Both the position numbers and the translations under genes were made by a program. A stretch of 34,780 nt of DNA from Collinsella tanakaei. GTDB taxonomy: Bacteria > Actinomycetota > Coriobacteriia > Coriobacteriales > Coriobacteriaceae. The stretch covers positions 1 through 34,780 of the forward strand of contig NZ_JACJMB010000021.1 of NCBI RefSeq assembly GCF_016902615.1, written 5' to 3'. Positions 4,054 through 13,076 of the stretch are shown here, piece by piece. Positions within the stretch are counted from its first letter, which is position 1. The number at the start of each line of letters is the position of its first letter. The notes under the pieces are model-generated. The model did not search any database. It was not told the origin of the DNA and was given only the letters and a program-made list of their open reading frames with translations.

Positions 4054-6447
4054 CTACATCAAGTCGTAGGCGTCCACGTCCACGCTCAGCTTCACGCCCG
4101 GCTTGGCCCCCACCCGCTCGACGGCGCGGAAGAGCGCCCCCGAGATGTCGAGCCCCGGGGCGCTCTTGATGATGAAGTGATGGCGGTACTGGTCCTTGGC
4201 GCGCTCGATGACGCAGCTCGTGGGCCCGAGCAGGCGCACGGGCTCCTCACCTGTACCCGCACCGGCACCCAGCGCATCGGCCTCATCCATGACGGCACGC
4301 GCCACCGCACCGATGTAGGCGCGCACGCGCGCATCGTCCCGACCGCGTACGACGACGTTCGTCAGCCGCACATAGGGAGGATAGAGGGCCTCAGCGCGCT
4401 CGGCGTCGTCATGGGAGGTGAAGATGGCGCGGTCGTGCGCGGCGACGGCGCGGATCACCGGGTCGTCGGGCAGGTAGGTCTGGATGATGACCTTGCCCGC
4501 GCGCTCGCCGCGGCCCGCGCGCCCCGCCACCTGCTCGAGCAGGTCGAAGGCCCGCTCGGAGGCGCGGAAGTCCGGCATCTTGAGCGCGTAGTCCGCGATG
4601 ACGACGCCGACGAGCGTGACCTCAGGGAAATCGAGTCCCTTGGCGATCATCTGCGTGCCGAGCAGCACCGCGCTCTCGGCCGCATCGAACTCCTCGAGCA
4701 GCCGTTTGTGCGCGTCCTTGCCGCGGGTTGAGTCGGCGTCCATGCGGATGACCTTGGCCTCGGGCGGCATGAGCTCGATCAGGGCATCCTCTACCTGCTG
4801 GGTCCCCATGCCCATCTTCGCGAGGTAGCGGCTGCCGCATTTGGGGCAGGCGCTACCGGGTGCGGGATAGGGCTGCACGCGGTAGGTGGCGCCGCAGGTG
4901 TGGCACTCGAGGGTATGCGTCCGCTCGTGGTAGGTGAGCGCCGTCGAGCAGTGCTTGCAGGTGGGCACGCATCCGCAGTCGCGGCACATGAGGAACGGGG
5001 CGAATCCGCGGCGATTGTGCAGAAGCACGGCCTTCTCGCGGCGCTCGGCGACCTCGAGCAGCGCCTCGCGCAGCGGCCGCGAGAAGATCGAGCGCGCACC
5101 TCCGGCGAACTCGCGACGCAGGTCGGCCACGATGACATCGGGCAGCCTTCCGGCTCCGGCGCGCTCGGGCATCTCCACGCGACACCAGCGCTGCCCGAGG
5201 TACTCCCCCACCCGGCAGCGGTGAAGCGCCTCGGCAGAGGGCGTGGCAGACCCCAGCACCAAGGGGAACCCGCCCAGGTGCGCCATCTGCGCGGCGACCT
5301 CGCGCGCGTGGTAGCGCGGGCTCGACCCCTGCTTGTAAGACTGCTCGTGCTCCTCGTCGATCACAATGAGGCCGAGGTCGGACAGCGGGCAGAACAGCGC
5401 CGAGCGCGCCCCCACGACGACGCGTGCCGCGCCGGTGCGCACCATATCCCATTGGTCGAGCCGCTCGCCGGCCGACAGCCGCGAGTGGAACACCGCGACC
5501 GCGCCGCCGAACCGCGAGCGGAAGCGCCCGACCGTCTGCGCCGTGAGCGAGATCTCCGGCACGAGCACGATCGCGGTCCTCCCCGCGGCGAGCACGTGCT
5601 CGATGGCGGCGAGGTAGACCTCGGTCTTGCCCGACCCGGTGACGCCGTCGACGAGGATGACATCGTCCGCCCCGTCGTCCACGGCGCGCTCGATCTCGCC
5701 CAGCGCCGCGCTCTGACCGGCCGTGAGCGCCGCCGGGGCGCTCGAGCGAGCCGAGGAGAGCGTCGTCTGGTCGTCGATGCCGCGCCAGGCCCTGCGCTCG
5801 CGCACCTCGACGACGCCTCTCTTCTCGAGGGCGCGGATGGCTGCCGACAGATCGGTATACAGCAGGTTCAGCTCGCGCGTCGTCACCGGACCGCAGGCGA
5901 GCGCCTCCATGAGCTGCCGCTGCCGCACCGCGCGCGCCGGCGGCAGGTAATCGGCGGCCGCCGGCGTGAGCGACACGACGCGCTCGCGCACCTCCGGAAC
6001 GGCAGGGGGCTCAAGCTCGTAGCTTCCGTCTGCGGCATGGCGCAGGCGCGGCGTGCCGCCGGGCGGCAGAAAGAGGCGCAGGCACTCGGCGAGCGGCGCC
6101 ACGTACTCGCGGCTCATCCAATAGGCCACGGCCCCGGCATACGCGGAGCACACCGGCTCGGTCAGCACCGCGTCGATCGCGCGGATCCGCTTGCCGGCAA
6201 GCCCCTCTGCCCCGGGCAGCTCGTCAATGCTGTCCGCGAGCGCCACGACGTAACCGATCGCGGGGCGATGCCCGAACGCCACGAGCACCGCGCACCCGAC
6301 GGCGATATCGCCCGCAAGGGCGGGGGCGACCTCGTAGGCGAACGGGTCGGAGAGGGCGCGGGCGGGAATGTCGACGACCACGGACGCATAGGCGGCAGGC
6401 GCAGCGCCGTCCGCGGCAAAAAGGCTTTCAGTCCGTCCGTCCATCAT
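4054..6447 (-). CDS. priA: Primosomal protein N' (replication restart helicase PriA)
   Basis: Superfamily 2 3'-5' DNA helicase that recognises stalled forks and reloads the replisome. The 797-residue protein starts with a PriA DNA-binding domain (DIPARALSDPFAYEV). It has Walker A GVTGSGKTEVY, the DEEH box, and a zinc region with four Cys pairs (CRDC, CKHC, CHTC, CPKC) giving two zinc sites inside the helicase core. Late helicase motifs include GTQMIAKGLDFP and EQVAGRAGRGER. Length and motif order are normal and the zinc ligands are complete. It lies 121 bases upstream of def on the same strand and 167 bases downstream of metK. Confidence 0.96.
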   Translation of the reverse strand: MMDGRTESLFAADGAAPAAYASVVVDIPARALSDPFAYEVAPALAGDIAVGCAVLVAFGHRPAIGYVVALADSIDELPGAEGLAGKRIRAIDAVLTEPVCSAYAGAVAYWMSREYVAPLAECLRLFLPPGGTPRLRHAADGSYELEPPAVPEVRERVVSLTPAAADYLPPARAVRQRQLMEALACGPVTTRELNLLYTDLSAAIRALEKRGVVEVRERRAWRGIDDQTTLSSARSSAPAALTAGQSAALGEIERAVDDGADDVILVDGVTGSGKTEVYLAAIEHVLAAGRTAIVLVPEISLTAQTVGRFRSRFGGAVAVFHSRLSAGERLDQWDMVRTGAARVVVGARSALFCPLSDLGLIVIDEEHEQSYKQGSSPRYHAREVAAQMAHLGGFPLVLGSATPSAEALHRCRVGEYLGQRWCRVEMPERAGAGRLPDVIVADLRREFAGGARSIFSRPLREALLEVAERREKAVLLHNRRGFAPFLMCRDCGCVPTCKHCSTALTYHERTHTLECHTCGATYRVQPYPAPGSACPKCGSRYLAKMGMGTQQVEDALIELMPPEAKVIRMDADSTRGKDAHKRLLEEFDAAESAVLLGTQMIAKGLDFPEVTLVGVVIADYALKMPDFRASERAFDLLEQVAGRAGRGERAGKVIIQTYLPDDPVIRAVAAHDRAIFTSHDDAERAEALYPPYVRLTNVVVRGRDDARVRAYIGAVARAVMDEADALGAGAGTGEEPVRLLGPTSCVIERAKDQYRHHFIIKSAPGLDISGALFRAVERVGAKPGVKLSVDVDAYDLM

Positions 6448-6556
6448 CGATCATCCCCCTCAAATCCTCGAGACGCGCGATGCTCCTACGCCCTGCGCAT
6501 CATACACCGGCGAGCAGACAGATGCGCGTCGAAGCGCGCCCGGGCACCAACGGGAA

Positions 6557-6589
6557 GGGGCCGGCCCCGCGCGCAGCGAAGCCGGCCCC
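6557..6589 (-). terminator. GC-rich stem-loop downstream of metK, possible terminator
   Basis: GGGGCCGGC and GCCGGCCCC form a perfect 9-bp stem with a 15-base loop, 26 bases after the metK stop. On the minus strand only TTCCCGTT follows, so the U tract is weak. Termination here is plausible but not certain. Confidence 0.45.
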
Positions 6590-6614
6590 GGCTGGCAAAC
6601 ATAGCGTGGGCGCC

Positions 6615-7889
6615 CTACCTGCCGCAGGCAGCGCGCAGCTCCTCCACGCGGTCGCAGCGCTCCCAGGTGAAGTCGGGATCCTCGCGGCCGAAGTGACCAT
6701 AGGCGGCCGTCTTCTCGAATATGGGGCGGCGCAGGTCGAGGTCGCGGATGATCGCGCCCGGGCGCAGGTCGAACACCTGCTCGATCGCGCGCTCGATGTC
6801 GGCCACGGGCACATGCTCGGTGCCGAACGTCTCGACCATGAGCGACAGCGGGTGCGCCACGCCGATGGCATAGGCGAGCTGGACCTCGCAGCGGTCGGCG
6901 AGCCCTGCCGCGACGACGTTTTTCGCCACCCAGCGCGCCGCGTAGGCAGCCGAGCGGTCGACCTTCGTGCAATCCTTGCCGGAGAACGCGCCGCCGCCGT
7001 GACGGCCCATGCCGCCATAGGTGTCGACGATGATCTTGCGGCCGGTAAGGCCGGTGTCGCCCATGGGGCCGCCCACGACGAAGCGGCCGGTGGGGTTCAC
7101 GTAGATGGTCGCGTCGCGCCACGCGATGCCCTCTGCCTCCATGACGGGTGCGATGACGTGCTCGATGAGGTCGGCGCTGATGTGGTCCATGCTCTCGATC
7201 TCCGGCGCGTGCTGGGTGGAGATGACGACGGTCTCCACCGCCACGGGACGGTCGTCCTCGTAGCGCACGGTCACCTGCGTCTTGCCGTCCGGGCGCAGAT
7301 ACGGCAGCGTCCCGTCATGGCGCACCGCGGCGAGCTTCTCGGCCAGGCGGCTCGCCAGATAATGGGGCATGGGCATGAGGGTCGAGGTCTCGTTCGACGC
7401 GTAGCCGAACATCATGCCCTGGTCGCCCGCGCCGATGAGGTCGAGCGGGTCTGCGGCGCCGTGCTGAGCATCGAAGCTCTGGTCGACGCCCTGGGCGATG
7501 TCGGGGCTCTGCTCGTGAATCATATTGATGACGCCGCAGGTCTCGGAGTCGAAGCCGAACTTCGCGCGCGTGTAGCCGATGCGCTCGATGACGCGGCGGG
7601 CGATCTTCTGCACGTCGACGTAGGCTTGGCAGCGGATCTCGCCGGACACGATGACCGAGCCGGTGGTGACGAGCGTCTCGCATGCGCAGCGGACGTTCTC
7701 GAGGAGTGCCGGCACGCCCTTGTGGTCCACATAGCCCTGTGCCTCGAGCTTAGCCTCCTTGGCGAGGATGGCGTCGAGCACGGCGTCGGAGATCTGGTCG
7801 GCGATCTTGTCGGGATGCCCCTCGGTCACGGATTCGGACGTGAACACATAGGTGCGGGGTTCCTGGGTGGAACGAATCTGATCTGGCAT
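6615..7889 (-). CDS. metK: S-adenosylmethionine synthase
   Basis: Makes S-adenosylmethionine from methionine and ATP, supplying the methyl donor used by enzymes such as the nearby RsmB. The 424-residue product carries [20 protein letters not shown] at the N-terminus, the [15 protein letters not shown]-binding motif and the [10 protein letters not shown]-loop-like motif. It is slightly longer than the common 380-400 residues. ATG at 7889 has AAAGGGG five bases upstream, so an upstream 20-codon extension is rejected. A hairpin lies in the short leader. Confidence 0.97.
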
Positions 7890-7910
7890 AACGCCCCTTT
7901 CAACACTCCG

Positions 7911-7960
7911 CCCGGCGACCGTTACCATTCCGCCGGGCCTCAAAAGCACAGGCCATTGTA
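7911..7960 (-). promoter_or_regulatory. metK promoter -10 and leader hairpin
   Basis: On the minus strand TACAAT (7955-7960, within TATACAAT) is a good -10. Downstream, CCCGGCG (7911-7917) pairs with CGCCGGG (7931-7937), placing a hairpin about 20 bases before the start codon. The leader would be only about 60 nt, too short for a SAM-I riboswitch, and I recognise no SAM aptamer. The -35 is poor. Confidence 0.35.
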
Positions 7961-8039
7961 TACCGTGCGCATCATATTTGCGCCTGCGCCGCCCATGACC
8001 TCAGAAGCGCCATGCATGAAGGAGCCGGCGGACGCGCGC

Positions 8040-8075
8040 GGAGAAAAAGACGGGGGTCCCGATCGGAACCCCCGT
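8040..8075 (-). terminator. Intrinsic terminator of the YhgE operon
   Basis: ACGGGGGT (8050-8057) and ACCCCCGT (8068-8075) form the stem. On the minus strand the stem is followed directly by CTTTTTCTC. It lies 32 bases after the YhgE-like gene's stop codon, a normal terminator position. Confidence 0.82.
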
Positions 8076-8107
8076 ACCATACCCCCGATGCGCATGCGGG
8101 CGCGCCG

Positions 8108-10654
8108 TCAGATGCGCACAAGCGAGCGCCGGCGCGCGCGCAGCCCCGAGCAGCACAGGGCGATGAGCGCGAAGACGGCGAGCACGACAAGCGCCGTGCC
8201 GACCCCCGCGGTGACGCCGGCAAGCGCCCGGCGCAGGGCGTCGACGAGGACGGGCACCGGGAGCGCGTCCCCCAGCATCTGGAGCGGGCCCGCCGAAAGC
8301 GAGGCGGGAACGACGCTGTTCGCGCACGCGAGCTGCAGCGCGAGCAGGCCCAGGGCCACCGGCGTCGCCGCGCGCCCGAACCAGATCCTGAGCGCCTGCG
8401 CGATCATGGCGAAGGCGAGCGCGCACACGATGAGCAGCACGGCCGTGGCCGCAAGGTTTCCGACCGAGACGCCGGCAAGCATCAGCACGACCATGCCGAG
8501 CGCCGCCTGCACGATGCTGAAAACGCCAAGCGACACCAGGGGCGCGAGCACCGCCTGCCCGTAGCGCCCCGCCGCGACGACGCGCATGTCGAGCACGGGC
8601 ATGATCGCGCAGGCGAGGATGCTGCCGAGCCACAGCGCGGACACGAGGATTGCCGGCGCGACCTGGGTCGCCGAGCTCACCGGCGCCACGCGCGTCGTCG
8701 TGAAGGCGACGGAGCGGGCGGCGACCTCGGCGCGCTCCGAACGGTCGCGGGAAACGTCGGACAGGGTATCGCCCGCCTCGGCCATGCTGTCGGCGATCTG
8801 GGCCGTGGCATCCCCGAGCTGCCCGGCGCCATCGGCGAGCTGATCGGTCGCCGTCGCCATGGCCGCGATGCCCTCGCCCAGGCCGGACGCGCCGCCGGCC
8901 ACGCCCGAGAGCGCTTCCGCGAGCGCCGCGTTGCCCGAGGCCAGCTGGCCGGTCGCCTCGGCCATGGGCGTCAGCGCCTCACCGAGCGCCGAGGCGCCCG
9001 TCGCCAGCGCGGACACGCCCGAACCCACGGCGCCGGTTGAGGAGAGCTGCCCGGCGAGCGACGAGACGCCCCGGCCGAGCGTGGTCACCGTGTCGGCAAG
9101 ACCGGGGGTGTACCCCGCGGTGCCCGCCTCGCCGACGCCGGCAAGCGTCGCCTGCGCCGTCGCGACGCCGCGCGCAAGCGAGCCAGCCGAGGTCGCAGCG
9201 GAGGTCGCCGCTCTCACGAGCCCCTCGACCGGCTCGCTCACGCCCGCGGTCGCTTCGCCGAAGCGCTGCGTGGCCGCCACGAGGTCCTCGTTGGCAGCGA
9301 CGGCGCCGTCGAGCGCCTCCACGGAGGACCCGGCGGTCGCGACGAGGCCCGTCGCGGTATCGGACGCCGCCTGGAGGCGCTCACCCAACGCATCGCGCTC
9401 GGAAGCGAGCTCGGTCAGCTGGTCGTCGATTTCCTCCACGCGCGCCGCGCGGTCCTCTGCGGAAAGCTCGGCGTCGGAGGCGACCTCGCGCAGCTGCGCG
9501 ACCAGCTCGTCCTCGGCTGCATCGAGCGCCTTCGCCTGCTCGACGATACCAGGCGCCTGCTCATCCTCACAGGAGAGCTCTCCTGCGAGCGCAGCGGCCG
9601 CGTCGGAGGCGGCCTTCGCGCCCTCGCTCGCGGCCGTCACCCCGCCGGAGACGGTGGCGGCTGCCGTGGCGACCTCCCCCATGGGCTCCGTCACGCTGGA
9701 GAGCGCCTGCGAGAGAGCCTCGCCCTGTTGGCCGATCTGGCCGGCGGCCGTCCCGAGCGCGGCGACATCATCCATGTTCTGGCCGAGCGCGTCCGCGACG
9801 CCCGACAGCGCGCCGCCGACCTGCTCGACGCCCGAACCCAGGGACTGCGCCGTGCTGGAGATCGTGTCGAGGCCGGAGAGCAGCGCGTCCGCGCCGGCGG
9901 CGAGCGGGGCCGCCGCCTGGTCGCGGATCGCCGTCAGGCCCTGGCCGAGCGCCGCGGCGCCCGAGCCCGCCGCCTCGACGCCCTGGGCGATCTGGTCAAG
10001 ACCGCTTCCGAGCTGCTCGGCCCCGCTCGCGGTGGTGCTGAGTCCTTGGGAGATGGCGCCCGCCCCCTCGACGATACCGTCGAAACCGGCATCGAGCATC
10101 GTCGAGCCGTCGGCGGTGAGCGTCAGGCGCGACGCCTCCTGCTGCACATCGGAGAGAACCGACACGAGGTAGTCCTGACCCAGATCCGCGCGCAGGCGGC
10201 TCTGCACCTGCTTCAGCACGGCCGAGCCCGCGCTGGTGGCGAGCGCGTTCTCGCCGCCGTTCGAGATGATCTCGACCGTCGCCTGCTGCGGGTCGTCGCC
10301 GGACACGCTCTCGACGCTGGCGGAGTAGTTCTCGGGGATCTTCACGACCAGCGCGTACGTCCCCCGCTCGAGACCGGAGGTCGCCTCGTCCTCATCGACC
10401 TCGGTCCAGATAAGGTCGGTGGTGTCGCCGAGCGAGTCCACGAGGTCCTCGCCCGCGTGGATGGAGCCGCCCTCATCGAGGTTGACGACGGCCACGGGGA
10501 CCGCGCCCGCACCGGAAAGCGCCGGCGCGAGCCCCCACACGAGCACGGCCGCGAGCGCGATCGGCACGACGAGCGCGACGGCTGCGATCACGGCGCGACG
10601 CGAGCGGAGCGCCGAGACGACGGCGAGTCGGATCGATTCGAAGATGCCGGACAT
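8108..10654 (-). CDS. YhgE/Pip-family membrane protein
   Basis: 848-residue membrane protein of the YhgE/Pip (phage infection protein-like) family, related to ABC-2 type permeases. There is one N-terminal membrane segment (about 23-45). A long extracytoplasmic region follows, starting with VPVAVVNLDEGG and continuing with many short Ala/Gly/Ser-rich helical repeats (GLDQIAQGVEAAGSG-like). Five C-terminal membrane segments lie between about residues 655 and 840. Family members are linked to export, envelope functions or WXG-type secretion (established for some relatives only). GGGAGG lies ten bases before the ATG. It is 21 bases downstream of an ABC-ATPase-like gene, which suggests a complex, but that partner lacks catalytic motifs. 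The substrate is unknown. Confidence 0.85.
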   Translation of the reverse strand: MSGIFESIRLAVVSALRSRRAVIAAVALVVPIALAAVLVWGLAPALSGAGAVPVAVVNLDEGGSIHAGEDLVDSLGDTTDLIWTEVDEDEATSGLERGTYALVVKIPENYSASVESVSGDDPQQATVEIISNGGENALATSAGSAVLKQVQSRLRADLGQDYLVSVLSDVQQEASRLTLTADGSTMLDAGFDGIVEGAGAISQGLSTTASGAEQLGSGLDQIAQGVEAAGSGAAALGQGLTAIRDQAAAPLAAGADALLSGLDTISSTAQSLGSGVEQVGGALSGVADALGQNMDDVAALGTAAGQIGQQGEALSQALSSVTEPMGEVATAAATVSGGVTAASEGAKAASDAAAALAGELSCEDEQAPGIVEQAKALDAAEDELVAQLREVASDAELSAEDRAARVEEIDDQLTELASERDALGERLQAASDTATGLVATAGSSVEALDGAVAANEDLVAATQRFGEATAGVSEPVEGLVRAATSAATSAGSLARGVATAQATLAGVGEAGTAGYTPGLADTVTTLGRGVSSLAGQLSSTGAVGSGVSALATGASALGEALTPMAEATGQLASGNAALAEALSGVAGGASGLGEGIAAMATATDQLADGAGQLGDATAQIADSMAEAGDTLSDVSRDRSERAEVAARSVAFTTTRVAPVSSATQVAPAILVSALWLGSILACAIMPVLDMRVVAAGRYGQAVLAPLVSLGVFSIVQAALGMVVLMLAGVSVGNLAATAVLLIVCALAFAMIAQALRIWFGRAATPVALGLLALQLACANSVVPASLSAGPLQMLGDALPVPVLVDALRRALAGVTAGVGTALVVLAVFALIALCCSGLRARRRSLVRI

Positions 10655-10675
10655 GCGGCATCGACCTCCCTTACG

Positions 10676-11368
10676 TTAACGATGGGCCCGCAGGCCCTCG
10701 AGCGCCTCGGCGGACGGGATATCGAGAGGGAACGCCATATCGGCCGCGGCGGCGACCACAGGGTCGCTCGTCGCCACGGCGACCGTGCAGCCGCTCTTGT
10801 GCGAAAAGCTCGCGATGGCCGCCATGACCTCGCAGGCATCGGCGGCGGACAGCCCGCGCAGGCACGCATCCGAAATGTCGAGCGCGGCGACGCGCACCTC
10901 GCCCGCGCAGGCAAGCGCCCCCGAAAGCCGCGCGCGGGAGGCGGCGTCTATGTCGTCGGCGCGCTGCTCCGCGCGCGTCGCCACGCCGAAGCAGGCAAGG
11001 TACTCGAGGACATCGGGCGCCCCATGCGCGCCCAGGCGCAGGCGCATCTCGCGCGAGACCAGCTCGTCGACCGTGAGCTTCAAATCGACCGGATAGAACT
11101 CCGAGAAGATGCCGATGCCGCACACCCCGCGCGAAAGCCTGCCGCCGCCGGTGATATCGACCCCGTCGATGACAAGCGAGCCGGATGTGGGCACCAGATG
11201 CCCGCCGATCGCGAGCGCGAGGTCGCGTGCGGGCTCGGCGTCTTCACTCAGAAGAGCGCAGAGCGTCCCCGCGGGCACCTCGAGCGACGCGAACTCGAAC
11301 GAGCGATGACCGCGCGCCGTGTACCCCGCGTCGACCGCGACGATGCGCGCCTGCCGTTCGTGTTCCAT
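10676..11368 (-). CDS. Degenerate ABC-ATPase-like protein, partner of YhgE protein
   Basis: The 230-residue product aligns by eye along a whole ABC ATPase: PAGTLCALL, GGHLVPTSGSLVIDGVDITG, LTVDEL, a signature-helix region, and ALDISDACLRGLSAADA. The nucleotide machinery is gone. The Walker A site reads LSEDAEPARDL (about 40-50) with no GKS/T. The LSGGQ site reads DAASRARLSGAL. The Walker B end reads ALDISD instead of LLDEPT. The switch His is replaced (ATSDP, 200-203). The frame is intact and the start (ATG 11368, GGAAAGG upstream) looks functional, so it is not an obvious pseudogene. I infer a structural or regulatory subunit for the YhgE protein made from the same transcript. Confidence 0.75.
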   Translation of the reverse strand: MEHERQARIVAVDAGYTARGHRSFEFASLEVPAGTLCALLSEDAEPARDLALAIGGHLVPTSGSLVIDGVDITGGGRLSRGVCGIGIFSEFYPVDLKLTVDELVSREMRLRLGAHGAPDVLEYLACFGVATRAEQRADDIDAASRARLSGALACAGEVRVAALDISDACLRGLSAADACEVMAAIASFSHKSGCTVAVATSDPVVAAAADMAFPLDIPSAEALEGLRAHR

Positions 11369-11431
11369 AGGAGCGCCGCCTTTCCATAGCGTACCTGTCA
11401 TTCCTACCCGGAAGCGGGCGGATAAACCATC

Positions 11432-11437
11432 ATTGTA
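11432..11437 (-). promoter_or_regulatory. Candidate -10 for the YhgE operon
   Basis: Minus-strand TACAAT, about 64 bases upstream of the ABC-like gene's start. The matching -35 position (TGCGCC) is weak, so this rests mainly on the -10. Confidence 0.35.
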
Positions 11438-11548
11438 TCGAACTGGTGGCGATCGGCGCACCTCGCTGAGGCCCGGCGGGCGCATCGCGGCAGATTTGCT
11501 CATATCCCGCAAATCCGCACGGACGCCGCGGATGCGGGACGGCTGCCA

Positions 11549-11554
11549 TATAAT
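11549..11554 (+). promoter_or_regulatory. Candidate -10 of gltX
   Basis: A perfect TATAAT 40 bases before the gltX ATG, in otherwise GC-rich DNA. It predicts a leader of roughly 35 nt. No good -35 is visible. Confidence 0.5.
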
Positions 11555-11594
11555 GCTTGGGATTGACTGCAACCGAACCCCATGAGGAGCATCC

Positions 11595-13076
11595 ATGAGC
11601 TCAAACGTCCGCGTGCGCTTCGCGCCCTCGCCCACCGGCAAGCTGCACATCGGCGGCGCCCGCACCGCCATCTACAACTGGGCCTTCGCCCGCGCCAACG
11701 GCGGCACGTTCATCCTGCGCATCGACGACACCGACCCGACCCGCTCCACGGCCGAGAACACGCAGATCATCCTGCGCGCCATGCGCTGGCTCGGCCTCGA
11801 CTGGGACGAGGGCCCCGAGGTCGGCGGCGACTTCGGCCCCTATGCCCAGACCGAGCGACTCGACCTCTACCGCGAGGCCGCCGAGCGCCTGCTCGACGAG
11901 GGCCGCGCCTACCCCTGCTTCTGCACGCCCGAGCAGCTCGAGGCCGACCGCGAGGCGGCCCGCGCCCGCAAGGACCCCTTCCAGGGCTATCAGCGCCGCT
12001 GCCGCGACATCGACCCGGCTGAGGCCCGTGCGCGCATGGACGCCGGCGAGCCCTACACCCTGCGCATCAAGGTGCCCGAGGACCGCGGCGACGTCGTGAT
12101 CGACGACGCCGTGCACGGTCGGGTGGTCTTCGATGCCAAGGAACTCGACGACTTCGTGATCTTCCGCTCCGACGGCACGCCCACCTACAACTTCGCCACC
12201 GTCGTCGACGACGCCGCCATGGGCATCACCCACGTCATCCGCGGCGACGACCACCTCTCCAACACCCCGCGCCAGGTCATGGTCTACGAGGCCCTCGGCG
12301 CCCCCGTGCCCACCTTCGCGCACATCTCCATGATTCTCGGCGCCGACGGCAAGAAGCTCTCGAAGCGCCACGGCGCAACCTCCGTGGAGGAGTACCGCGA
12401 CGCCGGCTACCTGTCCGACGCCTTCGTGAACTACCTGGCCCTGCTCGGCTGGTCGCTCGACGGCGAGACCACCGTCATCCCGCGCGACGTGCTCGCCCGC
12501 GAGTTCTCGCTCGAGCGCATCTCGAAGAACCCGGCAACGTTCGACCCCAAGAAGCTCGACTGGATGAACGCCGAGTACATCAACCGCATGGACGACGAGA
12601 CGTTCACGGATGAGATCATGCTGCCGCAGCTCGCCGAGGCGGGCATCCCCGCCGTACGCTCCGAGCACGACGACGCTTGGTGGAACCTGCTCGCGAGCAT
12701 CGTGCGCCCGCGCACGAAGATGCCCGCGGACGCCGCGGCGGTAGCCGCCCCCGTCTTCGCCACGGCCGACACGCTCGCCTACGATGAGAAGTCCGTTGCG
12801 AAAGGCCTCGCCAAGGAGGGCATGGCGACGATTCTCGACGCCGCGCGCGTGGCGCTCGGCACCCTGGCTGCGGGCGACTGGCGCGCCGAGGCCATCGACG
12901 CCGCGCTCGAACCGCTGCCCGAGGCGCTCGACGCCAAGAAGCGCATCGTGTTCCAGGCCATCCGCGTGGCCGAGTGCGGCAACATGGTGAGCCCGCCGCT
13001 CGGTGAGACCATGCAGCTCATCGGCCGTGACGACTGCCTGGCGCGCATCGACCGCGCCCGCACGATGGCGCTCTAG
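11595..13076 (+). CDS. gltX: Glutamate--tRNA ligase
   Basis: Class I aminoacyl-tRNA synthetase that charges tRNA-Glu in the cytosol. Two candidate substrate genes, both tRNA-Glu(CUC), lie in this same window. The 493-residue protein opens RFAPSPTGKLHIGGARTAI (HIGH-type motif at 18-21) and contains DGKKLSKRHGATS (KMSKS-type motif), with the Rossmann core and a helical anticodon-binding C-terminus. Length is standard for a discriminating or non-discriminating GluRS; I cannot tell which. GAGGAG lies five bases before the ATG. A strong terminator follows. Confidence 0.97.
   Translation: MSSNVRVRFAPSPTGKLHIGGARTAIYNWAFARANGGTFILRIDDTDPTRSTAENTQIILRAMRWLGLDWDEGPEVGGDFGPYAQTERLDLYREAAERLLDEGRAYPCFCTPEQLEADREAARARKDPFQGYQRRCRDIDPAEARARMDAGEPYTLRIKVPEDRGDVVIDDAVHGRVVFDAKELDDFVIFRSDGTPTYNFATVVDDAAMGITHVIRGDDHLSNTPRQVMVYEALGAPVPTFAHISMILGADGKKLSKRHGATSVEEYRDAGYLSDAFVNYLALLGWSLDGETTVIPRDVLAREFSLERISKNPATFDPKKLDWMNAEYINRMDDETFTDEIMLPQLAEAGIPAVRSEHDDAWWNLLASIVRPRTKMPADAAAVAAPVFATADTLAYDEKSVAKGLAKEGMATILDAARVALGTLAAGDWRAEAIDAALEPLPEALDAKKRIVFQAIRVAECGNMVSPPLGETMQLIGRDDCLARIDRARTMAL

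Follow-up and report, generated by a model that had tools for sequence, protein, structure and literature searches.

A conserved ABC ATPase-like protein that lacks key ATPase motifs is paired with a YhgE/Pip membrane protein in Collinsella and its relatives

One gene in a 34,780-nucleotide stretch of DNA (the window) from the gut bacterium Collinsella tanakaei encodes a protein with the layout of an ABC ATPase but without its catalytic motifs, and is followed by a gene for a YhgE/Pip membrane protein. Why would a membrane protein keep an ATPase that has lost these motifs? Our answer is that the ATPase-like protein, here called pNBD, is probably a conserved pseudo-ATPase, which would serve a YhgE complex resembling a type V ABC exporter as a docking, structural, gating or regulatory subunit, with the signature missing from every relative examined and the P-loop lost later in several lineages.

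The pNBD frame lies on the minus strand, with an ATG at 11368 and a stop at 10678-10676, and is open over 230 amino acids. Hence, the intact frame reported in an earlier note on this sequence was recovered. The same note had placed yhgE 21 bases after pNBD with one terminator for both, which agrees with the gap at 10655-10675 and with a terminator-like site at 8075-8050. This site falls between yhgE and metK and is the sole one in 6400-11700. Because shuffled sequence yields a mean of 1.3 such sites, the terminator argument rests on position and stem length and not on the count. Throughout the window's family (f1), the pair is flanked by gltX and metK. Among named genomes, the closest gltX listed comes from an uncultured Collinsella (91%, L275), followed by those of Olsenella, other Atopobiaceae, Slackia and Eggerthella types, in a comparison that may omit the window's own record; the host is thus a coriobacterium of the Collinsella type. 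Eight loci are 100% identical to named records: G008 and G030, with the genus code of the window, correspond to Collinsella sp. BRZ_FC bin3 and C. phocaeensis, G210 and G213 of a sister genus code also bear the name Collinsella, and G084 of f5 belongs to Atopobiaceae. Family f1 is probably Coriobacteriaceae and f2 probably Eggerthellaceae. The coordinates are given in Table 1, where metK is represented by its longest open frame; its true start is probably downstream of 7949.

Table 1. Features of the pNBD-yhgE locus and its flanks, in window coordinates.
Feature	Position	Strand	Remark
metK, longest open frame, downstream flank	6615..7949	-	other conserved flank of the pair
Intrinsic-terminator-like site 3' of yhgE	8050..8075	-	11-pair stem + CTTTTTC
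yhgE/pip gene, 848 aa	8108..10654	-	N-terminal elbow helix, TM1, large extracellular coiled coil, further C-terminal TMs
Predicted coupling helix of YhgE, TM2-TM3, residues 690-694, invariant R691	8573..8587	-	
Pseudo-ATPase gene pNBD (ABC NBD-like, 230 aa)	10676..11368	-	
Switch-histidine position, S201	10766..10768	-	
Walker B equivalent RVAALDISD: D164 kept, glutamate gone	10868..10894	-	
Signature position, IDAAS replaces LSGGQ	10937..10951	-	
Q-loop position, E90 replaces Gln	11099..11101	-	
Walker A equivalent, residues 41-48 (SEDAEPAR)	11225..11248	-	lysine position = A47
gltX, divergent neighbour, upstream	11595..13076	+	flanks the pair throughout the window's family

The ABC ATPase layout, first proposed from the letters, was borne out by structure prediction. 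The pNBD model, built from a 62-row alignment, is a confident ABC NBD fold (mean pLDDT 95.6, pTM 0.92), and all 50 rows listed in a comparison with the PDB (VIA) are ABC NBDs (Z 17.9-20.2). A phmmer search of the PDB matched YtrE (E 5.7e-5) and FhuC (2.1e-4), and the NCBIfam match was likewise FhuC (4.4e-5). The ABC origin of pNBD is not chance. Pfam ABC_tran gave no match to the window protein at E <= 1, and matched one relative each in families f2, f5 and f29. PADLOC reported nothing for pNBD.

Motifs were read from an alignment of the window protein with six ordinary ABC ATPases, in all of which LSGGQ, the Walker B D-E pair, the switch histidine and the Q-loop glutamine are present. The Walker A stretch of the window protein, ALLSEDAEPARDLALAIGG, is without the lysine and does not match GxxGxGK[ST], a pattern found at none of the 27 places of its family. 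Its aligned Walker B letters are ALDIS, and the letters around the switch histidine are ATSDP. Thus, the losses listed in the earlier note (Walker A lysine, LSGGQ, Walker B glutamate and switch histidine) all reappear in the alignment. Without LSGGQ the ordinary ATP sandwich cannot form. Judged from its sequence, the window protein is unlikely to hold ATP without a P-loop, and ATP hydrolysis is presumably absent.

A pNBD profile was used to search 395 genomes of the order for orthologues. Profile matches are at about 1e-47 or lower for whole copies and at 3e-26 or higher for ordinary NBDs, while copies cut by the search or by a contig end score 6e-40 to 3e-23 a piece and were assigned by place and frame. 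Among the matches listed, at least 88 of the 395 genomes have an orthologue. These 88 genomes contain 90 pNBD places; one genome (G013) has the gene in two parts on separate contigs, and another (G316) has an additional, near-identical copy that a contig end truncates. The frame is open at all 90 places, three of which are cut by contig ends. YhgE comes next on the same strand at 88 places, and the other two (L143, L147) are contig ends, so the pairing that the earlier note had singled out is constant in the order. The conserved domain of YhgE begins 39-208 bases (median 67) past the pNBD stop at the 88 places, which had been located with the NBD profile alone. A chance open reading frame was considered as well and rejected.

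The 90 places and 8 relatives from outside the order gave a set of 98 sequences in which the motifs could be compared. LSGGQ occurs in none of the 98 relatives, whereas it occurs in all six ordinary NBDs. The Walker B D-E pair and the aligned Q-loop glutamine are likewise found in 0 of 98, the switch histidine by aligned column in one (L082), and the rough pattern TH[DE] within the last 140 residues in two. The Walker A lysine is kept in 60 of the 98, none of them in the window's family. It is present in 33 of 33 members of f2, 22 of 23 of f5 and one of two of f9, and in the single members of f3, f7, f10 and f66. It is absent from all 27 members of f1 (one being a fragment without the region), from both members of f4, which have a lysine one place off, and from all seven of f29, which have arginine. 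Intact motifs in sister species, which the earlier note regarded as a sign of recent decay, did not appear: the motifs are gone in 9 of the 9 pNBD-bearing genomes of the genus, and Walker A occurs only in other families.

An NBD tree was built without the motif columns from 62 of the 90 places, after removal of near-copies and of the fragments L143, L147 and L148, together with the 8 further relatives and the six ordinary NBDs. The 70 partners stand opposite the six ordinary NBDs on this tree (100/99), and the Walker A lysine underwent at least four changes. Since LSGGQ is absent throughout and the lysine is patchy, the signature and the histidine either disappeared before the P-loop or never existed in this lineage, and the losses of the P-loop are later and repeated. 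The lineage as a whole thus lacks the signature, and its P-loop has disappeared independently on several branches, one of them being the window's family.

A good Walker A is common outside the window's family (e.g., GRNGSGKT), which implies that nucleotide binding may matter there. One could suppose that ATP serves as a regulatory ligand in the families with a P-loop, and that the window's family binds another ligand via R48-D49 and D164. Conservation lends this some support, as a G (0.97) and a K (0.94), followed by LLLTLAGRM with its M at 0.97, are strongly conserved outside the window's family, and R48 and D49 are newly conserved within it (0.95 each). A new conserved pair at the old P-loop is also unlike what decay gives. 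Yet, the lysine position is occupied by A, V, E, L, S, P or G in all 26 rows of f1 that have a letter there, and f29, f34, f19, f44 and f68 have likewise lost Walker A or carry an altered one. We consider such non-canonical use of nucleotides or other ligands unlikely.

The missing motifs could also be filled in by an ordinary ATPase encoded elsewhere, with pNBD as one half of a heterodimer. In the literature, heterodimeric ABC exporters with one degenerate site are well known, and CydDC, PatAB and MsRv1273c/72c resemble our case in the loss of motifs from a retained NBD. Moreover, additional ordinary NBDs are encoded in the genome, and the window contains two of these. The literature, however, describes one impaired and one working site in these transporters, in which one composite site thus stays complete, whereas the window locus cannot complete any. 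With the Walker A/B/histidine side and the signature side both gone from one chain, both composite sites would be broken. In addition, a second NBD (E <= 1e-15) is present in only 2 of the 90 fetched stretches (L147 and the window), at least 7 kb away. A heterodimer of this kind seems improbable to us.

The reading of pNBD as a conserved subunit of a YhgE complex gains from the way in which the two genes are inherited. Within the genus of the window, pNBD is present in 9 of 43 genomes, with an identity of 44-53%. According to TIGR03061, three YhgE genes are present in exactly these 9 genomes, two in 32 and none in 2. It is the third YhgE that adjoins pNBD in the 9 genomes, although the partnered copy of G013 scores under the TIGR03061 cut-off. 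The other two copies form a tandem. Unlike the partnered YhgE, these tandem copies are without an NBD partner: among 36 stretches, most of which extend just 0.5-1 kb past the YhgE genes, an NBD (E <= 1e-4) was found near the ordinary copies in one only, as an ordinary NBD on the opposite strand at the stretch end. We fetched 30 of 42 gltX loci, 8 of which have the pair. In 20 of the 22 examined genus genomes that lack the pair, gltX and metK are no more than 1.5 kb apart. The genes are thus lost jointly, leaving an empty site. Their divergence is also correlated: the distances of pNBD and YhgE, corrected for gltX, have a partial r of 0.57 over 21 loci, and none of 999 permutations reached a value as high.

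Synonymous and non-synonymous changes, which the earlier note had suggested comparing, were evaluated by NG86 with our own script. In five close pairs of the window's family, omega of pNBD is 0.15, 0.23, 0.27, 0.31 and 0.47, and omega of YhgE is 0.07-0.25, below that of pNBD in each pair. Comparison of the window with its nearest relatives, at a dS of about 1, gave 0.42 and 0.54 for pNBD and 0.43 and 0.43 for YhgE. Hence, pNBD is under purifying selection, less tightly than YhgE in close pairs, and its higher omega together with the window values of 0.42 and 0.54 implies that the constraint is not tight. The high divergence within the genus and the higher omega of pNBD are what one would expect of recent decay, with a dying ATPase kept by chance. 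Nevertheless, the frames are open at all 90 places, omega is below 0.5 in the five close pairs, the same motifs are lost in all members of the window's family, and pNBD is missing only along with the adjoining yhgE. We therefore rejected recent loss or decay, which we regard as highly improbable.

YhgE/PIP proteins are described in PMC4999554 as having a six-TM topology and a domain without known function, and as phage receptors in Gram-positive bacteria. The window YhgE matches TIGR03061 with 102.7 bits, above the cut-off of 96.15, and TIGR03062 with 73.1 bits (E 2.4e-20), below the cut-off of 102.2. Pfam ABC2_membrane_3 was matched with 46.3 bits (cut-off 31.6; 4e-12). The likeness to ABC-2 exporters that the earlier note had mentioned is upheld by this last match and by the ABCG and ABCA rows of the fold comparison. 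The model of YhgE, from an alignment of 38 selected sequences, is fair overall (pLDDT 73.3, pTM 0.47) and poor in the coiled coil. An elbow helix and TM1 come before a large extracellular part, after which TM2 leads to a short helix at 690-694 and then to further TMs. VIA-align returned ABCH, ABCG, ABCA and Pdr5 rows at Z 15-20. The ABCG, ABCA and Pdr5 rows have Z 15-19 and an rmsd of 3.5-4.2 over 203-239 residues, and the ABCH rows an rmsd of 12.5-12.9. Hence, the predicted fold of YhgE is exporter-like. Foldseek alone returned nothing at E <= 0.001 for this model; its best row was 3cni (E 6.5e-3), a Thermotoga ABC-2 transporter domain. PADLOC gave a single weak match of YhgE to ZorA (E 0.0056), which is probably due to the coiled coil.

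On a quick tree without bootstrap, 89 partnered and 7 unpartnered sequences are split by a branch with an SH-aLRT of 100. The TM2-TM3 loop has an arginine in 89 of 89 partnered YhgE, typically as PLNxR or xxDxR, and the window YhgE is of this partnered type. Unpartnered YhgE often have KLEVDxEG instead. An arginine stands in the loop column of 14 of 67 such sequences in one alignment and of 15 of 67 after re-alignment, for the most part in a different setting, e.g., VDREG; the set of 67 counts one gene twice (L334, L092) and includes two partial sequences (L339, L340). Among sequences fetched later, the arginine is present in 12 of 13 partnered YhgE. The exception (L404) has it displaced by one residue, and its partner is weak (18 bits). 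Ten further YhgE without a detected partner include four with the arginine, one in IDREG and three in PLPAR. The latter three belong to f11.

Three small f11 genomes of the same class (L377, L378, L380, L408-L410) contain a lone YhgE with the partnered-type loop and no NBD-like gene upstream, perhaps because the partner has been lost completely. Given these f11 sequences, a partner cannot be strictly predicted from the loop type, and the arginine was discarded as a perfect partner marker.

The pair is not confined to the order. Among 296 genomes drawn from Actinomycetota, seven of f29 and one of f66 have a pNBD-YhgE pair, and 83 have TIGR03061 matches, 44 of them over the cut-off. We examined the best-scoring 30 of these matches, about one per genome and not a random sample, and found an NBD-like open reading frame just upstream of YhgE in 19 of the 30 loci and none within 1.5 kb in the other 11. 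None of the 19 upstream partners has LSGGQ or TH[DE], and three have GK[ST]. The P-loop pattern is missing from the partners of f44, f68, f19 and one case of f34. Pfam was blank for 7 of the 9 scanned partners of f19, f34, f44 and f68, and the other two, both of f34, matched ABC_tran. The partners L379 and L381-L385 (f68, f44, f19), with neither a P-loop pattern nor a Pfam match, are probably annotated as hypothetical. Since Pfam is blank for the window protein as well, standard annotation can miss pNBD.

In one actinobacterial genus (g270), an NBD domain was found in 21 of 37 genomes. At the 20 loci that were fetched, the domain follows in frame after at least 509 residues (to the stretch end) and precedes YhgE, with GK[ST] kept and LSGGQ missing. 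All 8 frames that were scanned matched both MMPL and ABC_tran. The signature-less NBD is thus in frame with an upstream MMPL (RND-type) transporter and directly before YhgE (L190:4778-7888, minus strand, and L342-L361).

MMPL pumps are proton-driven. This fusion would suit an arrangement in which an MMPL pump is the real motor and pNBD the adaptor that connects it to YhgE. Yet, a search of the window genome gave no MMPL match, and MMPL was found in 4 of the 43 genus genomes (3 over the cut-off) and in only one of the 9 that have the pair. Given this negative result, an MMPL motor does not explain the window pair and was rejected for it, but it was kept as an idea for g270. As a general account of these pairs we hold it to be improbable, too.

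We return to pNBD as a conserved pseudo-ATPase subunit. In the mechanism that we propose, pNBD and YhgE would form one membrane complex, for which YhgE would provide a membrane part of type V (ABCG/ABCA-like) and a long extracellular coiled coil. The former ATPase would dock on the cytosolic side, at the coupling loop between TM2 and TM3 of YhgE. If the analogy with type V exporters applies, the membrane part may consist of two YhgE, each with one pNBD held under its coupling loop, i.e., a 2+2 stoichiometry. Lacking LSGGQ and a P-loop, pNBD would lock, gate or anchor the complex rather than drive it, as a scaffold or gate. The earlier note had suggested a transporter-derived complex with a drive or gate other than ATP at this subunit. 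The retained pseudo-ATPase, the exporter fold of YhgE and the purifying selection are in line with this suggestion, but the drive or gate other than ATP had been deduced from the motif loss and is kept here as a proposal.

That related actinobacterial pairs are also motif-less suggests that a membrane machine has kept its motor as a structural part. In a broader and more tentative version, an ABC-exporter-like lineage across Actinomycetota may have become independent of ATP as a whole. Its NBD might then be a clutch or adaptor on the YhgE loop, free for other motors such as MMPL, or might hold a cell-wall-spanning conduit open or shut. We find this version possible, but rather doubtful.

Several known systems share parts of this architecture. 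Type V exporters (ABCG2, ABCG5/G8, ABCA1/A4, Pdr5) have the elbow helix, the short TM2-TM3 helix and the NBD fold of the partner in common with the pair. They differ from it in that none of the 98 aligned partners has a complete ATP site and in the very long extracellular coiled coil of YhgE. YhgE/Pip (TIGR03061/TIGR03062; Pip of Lactococcus and Enterococcus) and EsaA/YueB of type VIIb have the same order of TM1, a large extracellular domain and further TMs. However, the window YhgE scores 53.1 bits with the EsaA model TIGR03929, below its cut-off of 122. In type VIIb, a relative of YhgE also has a pseudoenzyme partner, the pseudokinase EssB/YukC, which occurs with YueB/EsaA. As described in PMC9600267, EssB/YukC has a kinase fold instead of an ABC fold, and its contact with YueB is thought to be made via TM regions.

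The fold, the YhgE family and degenerate NBDs are known already. New, as far as the searched literature shows, is a whole lineage without a competent NBD that is paired with YhgE; our search, which covered papers outside subscription journals and bioRxiv, found no description of the pNBD-YhgE pair. A dedicated upstream partner at 19 of the 30 examined actinobacterial YhgE loci makes the pair an experimental handle on the role of YhgE. Furthermore, the families form a natural series, from an intact P-loop through a change of K to R to a missing P-loop, for studying what an ABC exporter does without hydrolysis.

Two observations concern the neighbourhood of these genes. TetR genes are common beside ligand-induced exporters. 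A TetR-family gene directly follows the pair at L108, L079, L128, L083 and L068 (f2, f5, f10), that is, in 5 of the 6 downstream neighbours that were scanned; the sixth (f29) matched nothing. Furthermore, in many Olsenella/Atopobiaceae records (L236-L257), a YhgE without pNBD, often as a tandem pair, lies directly upstream of gltX, at a spot that adjoins the site of the pNBD-YhgE pair in the Collinsella-family genomes.
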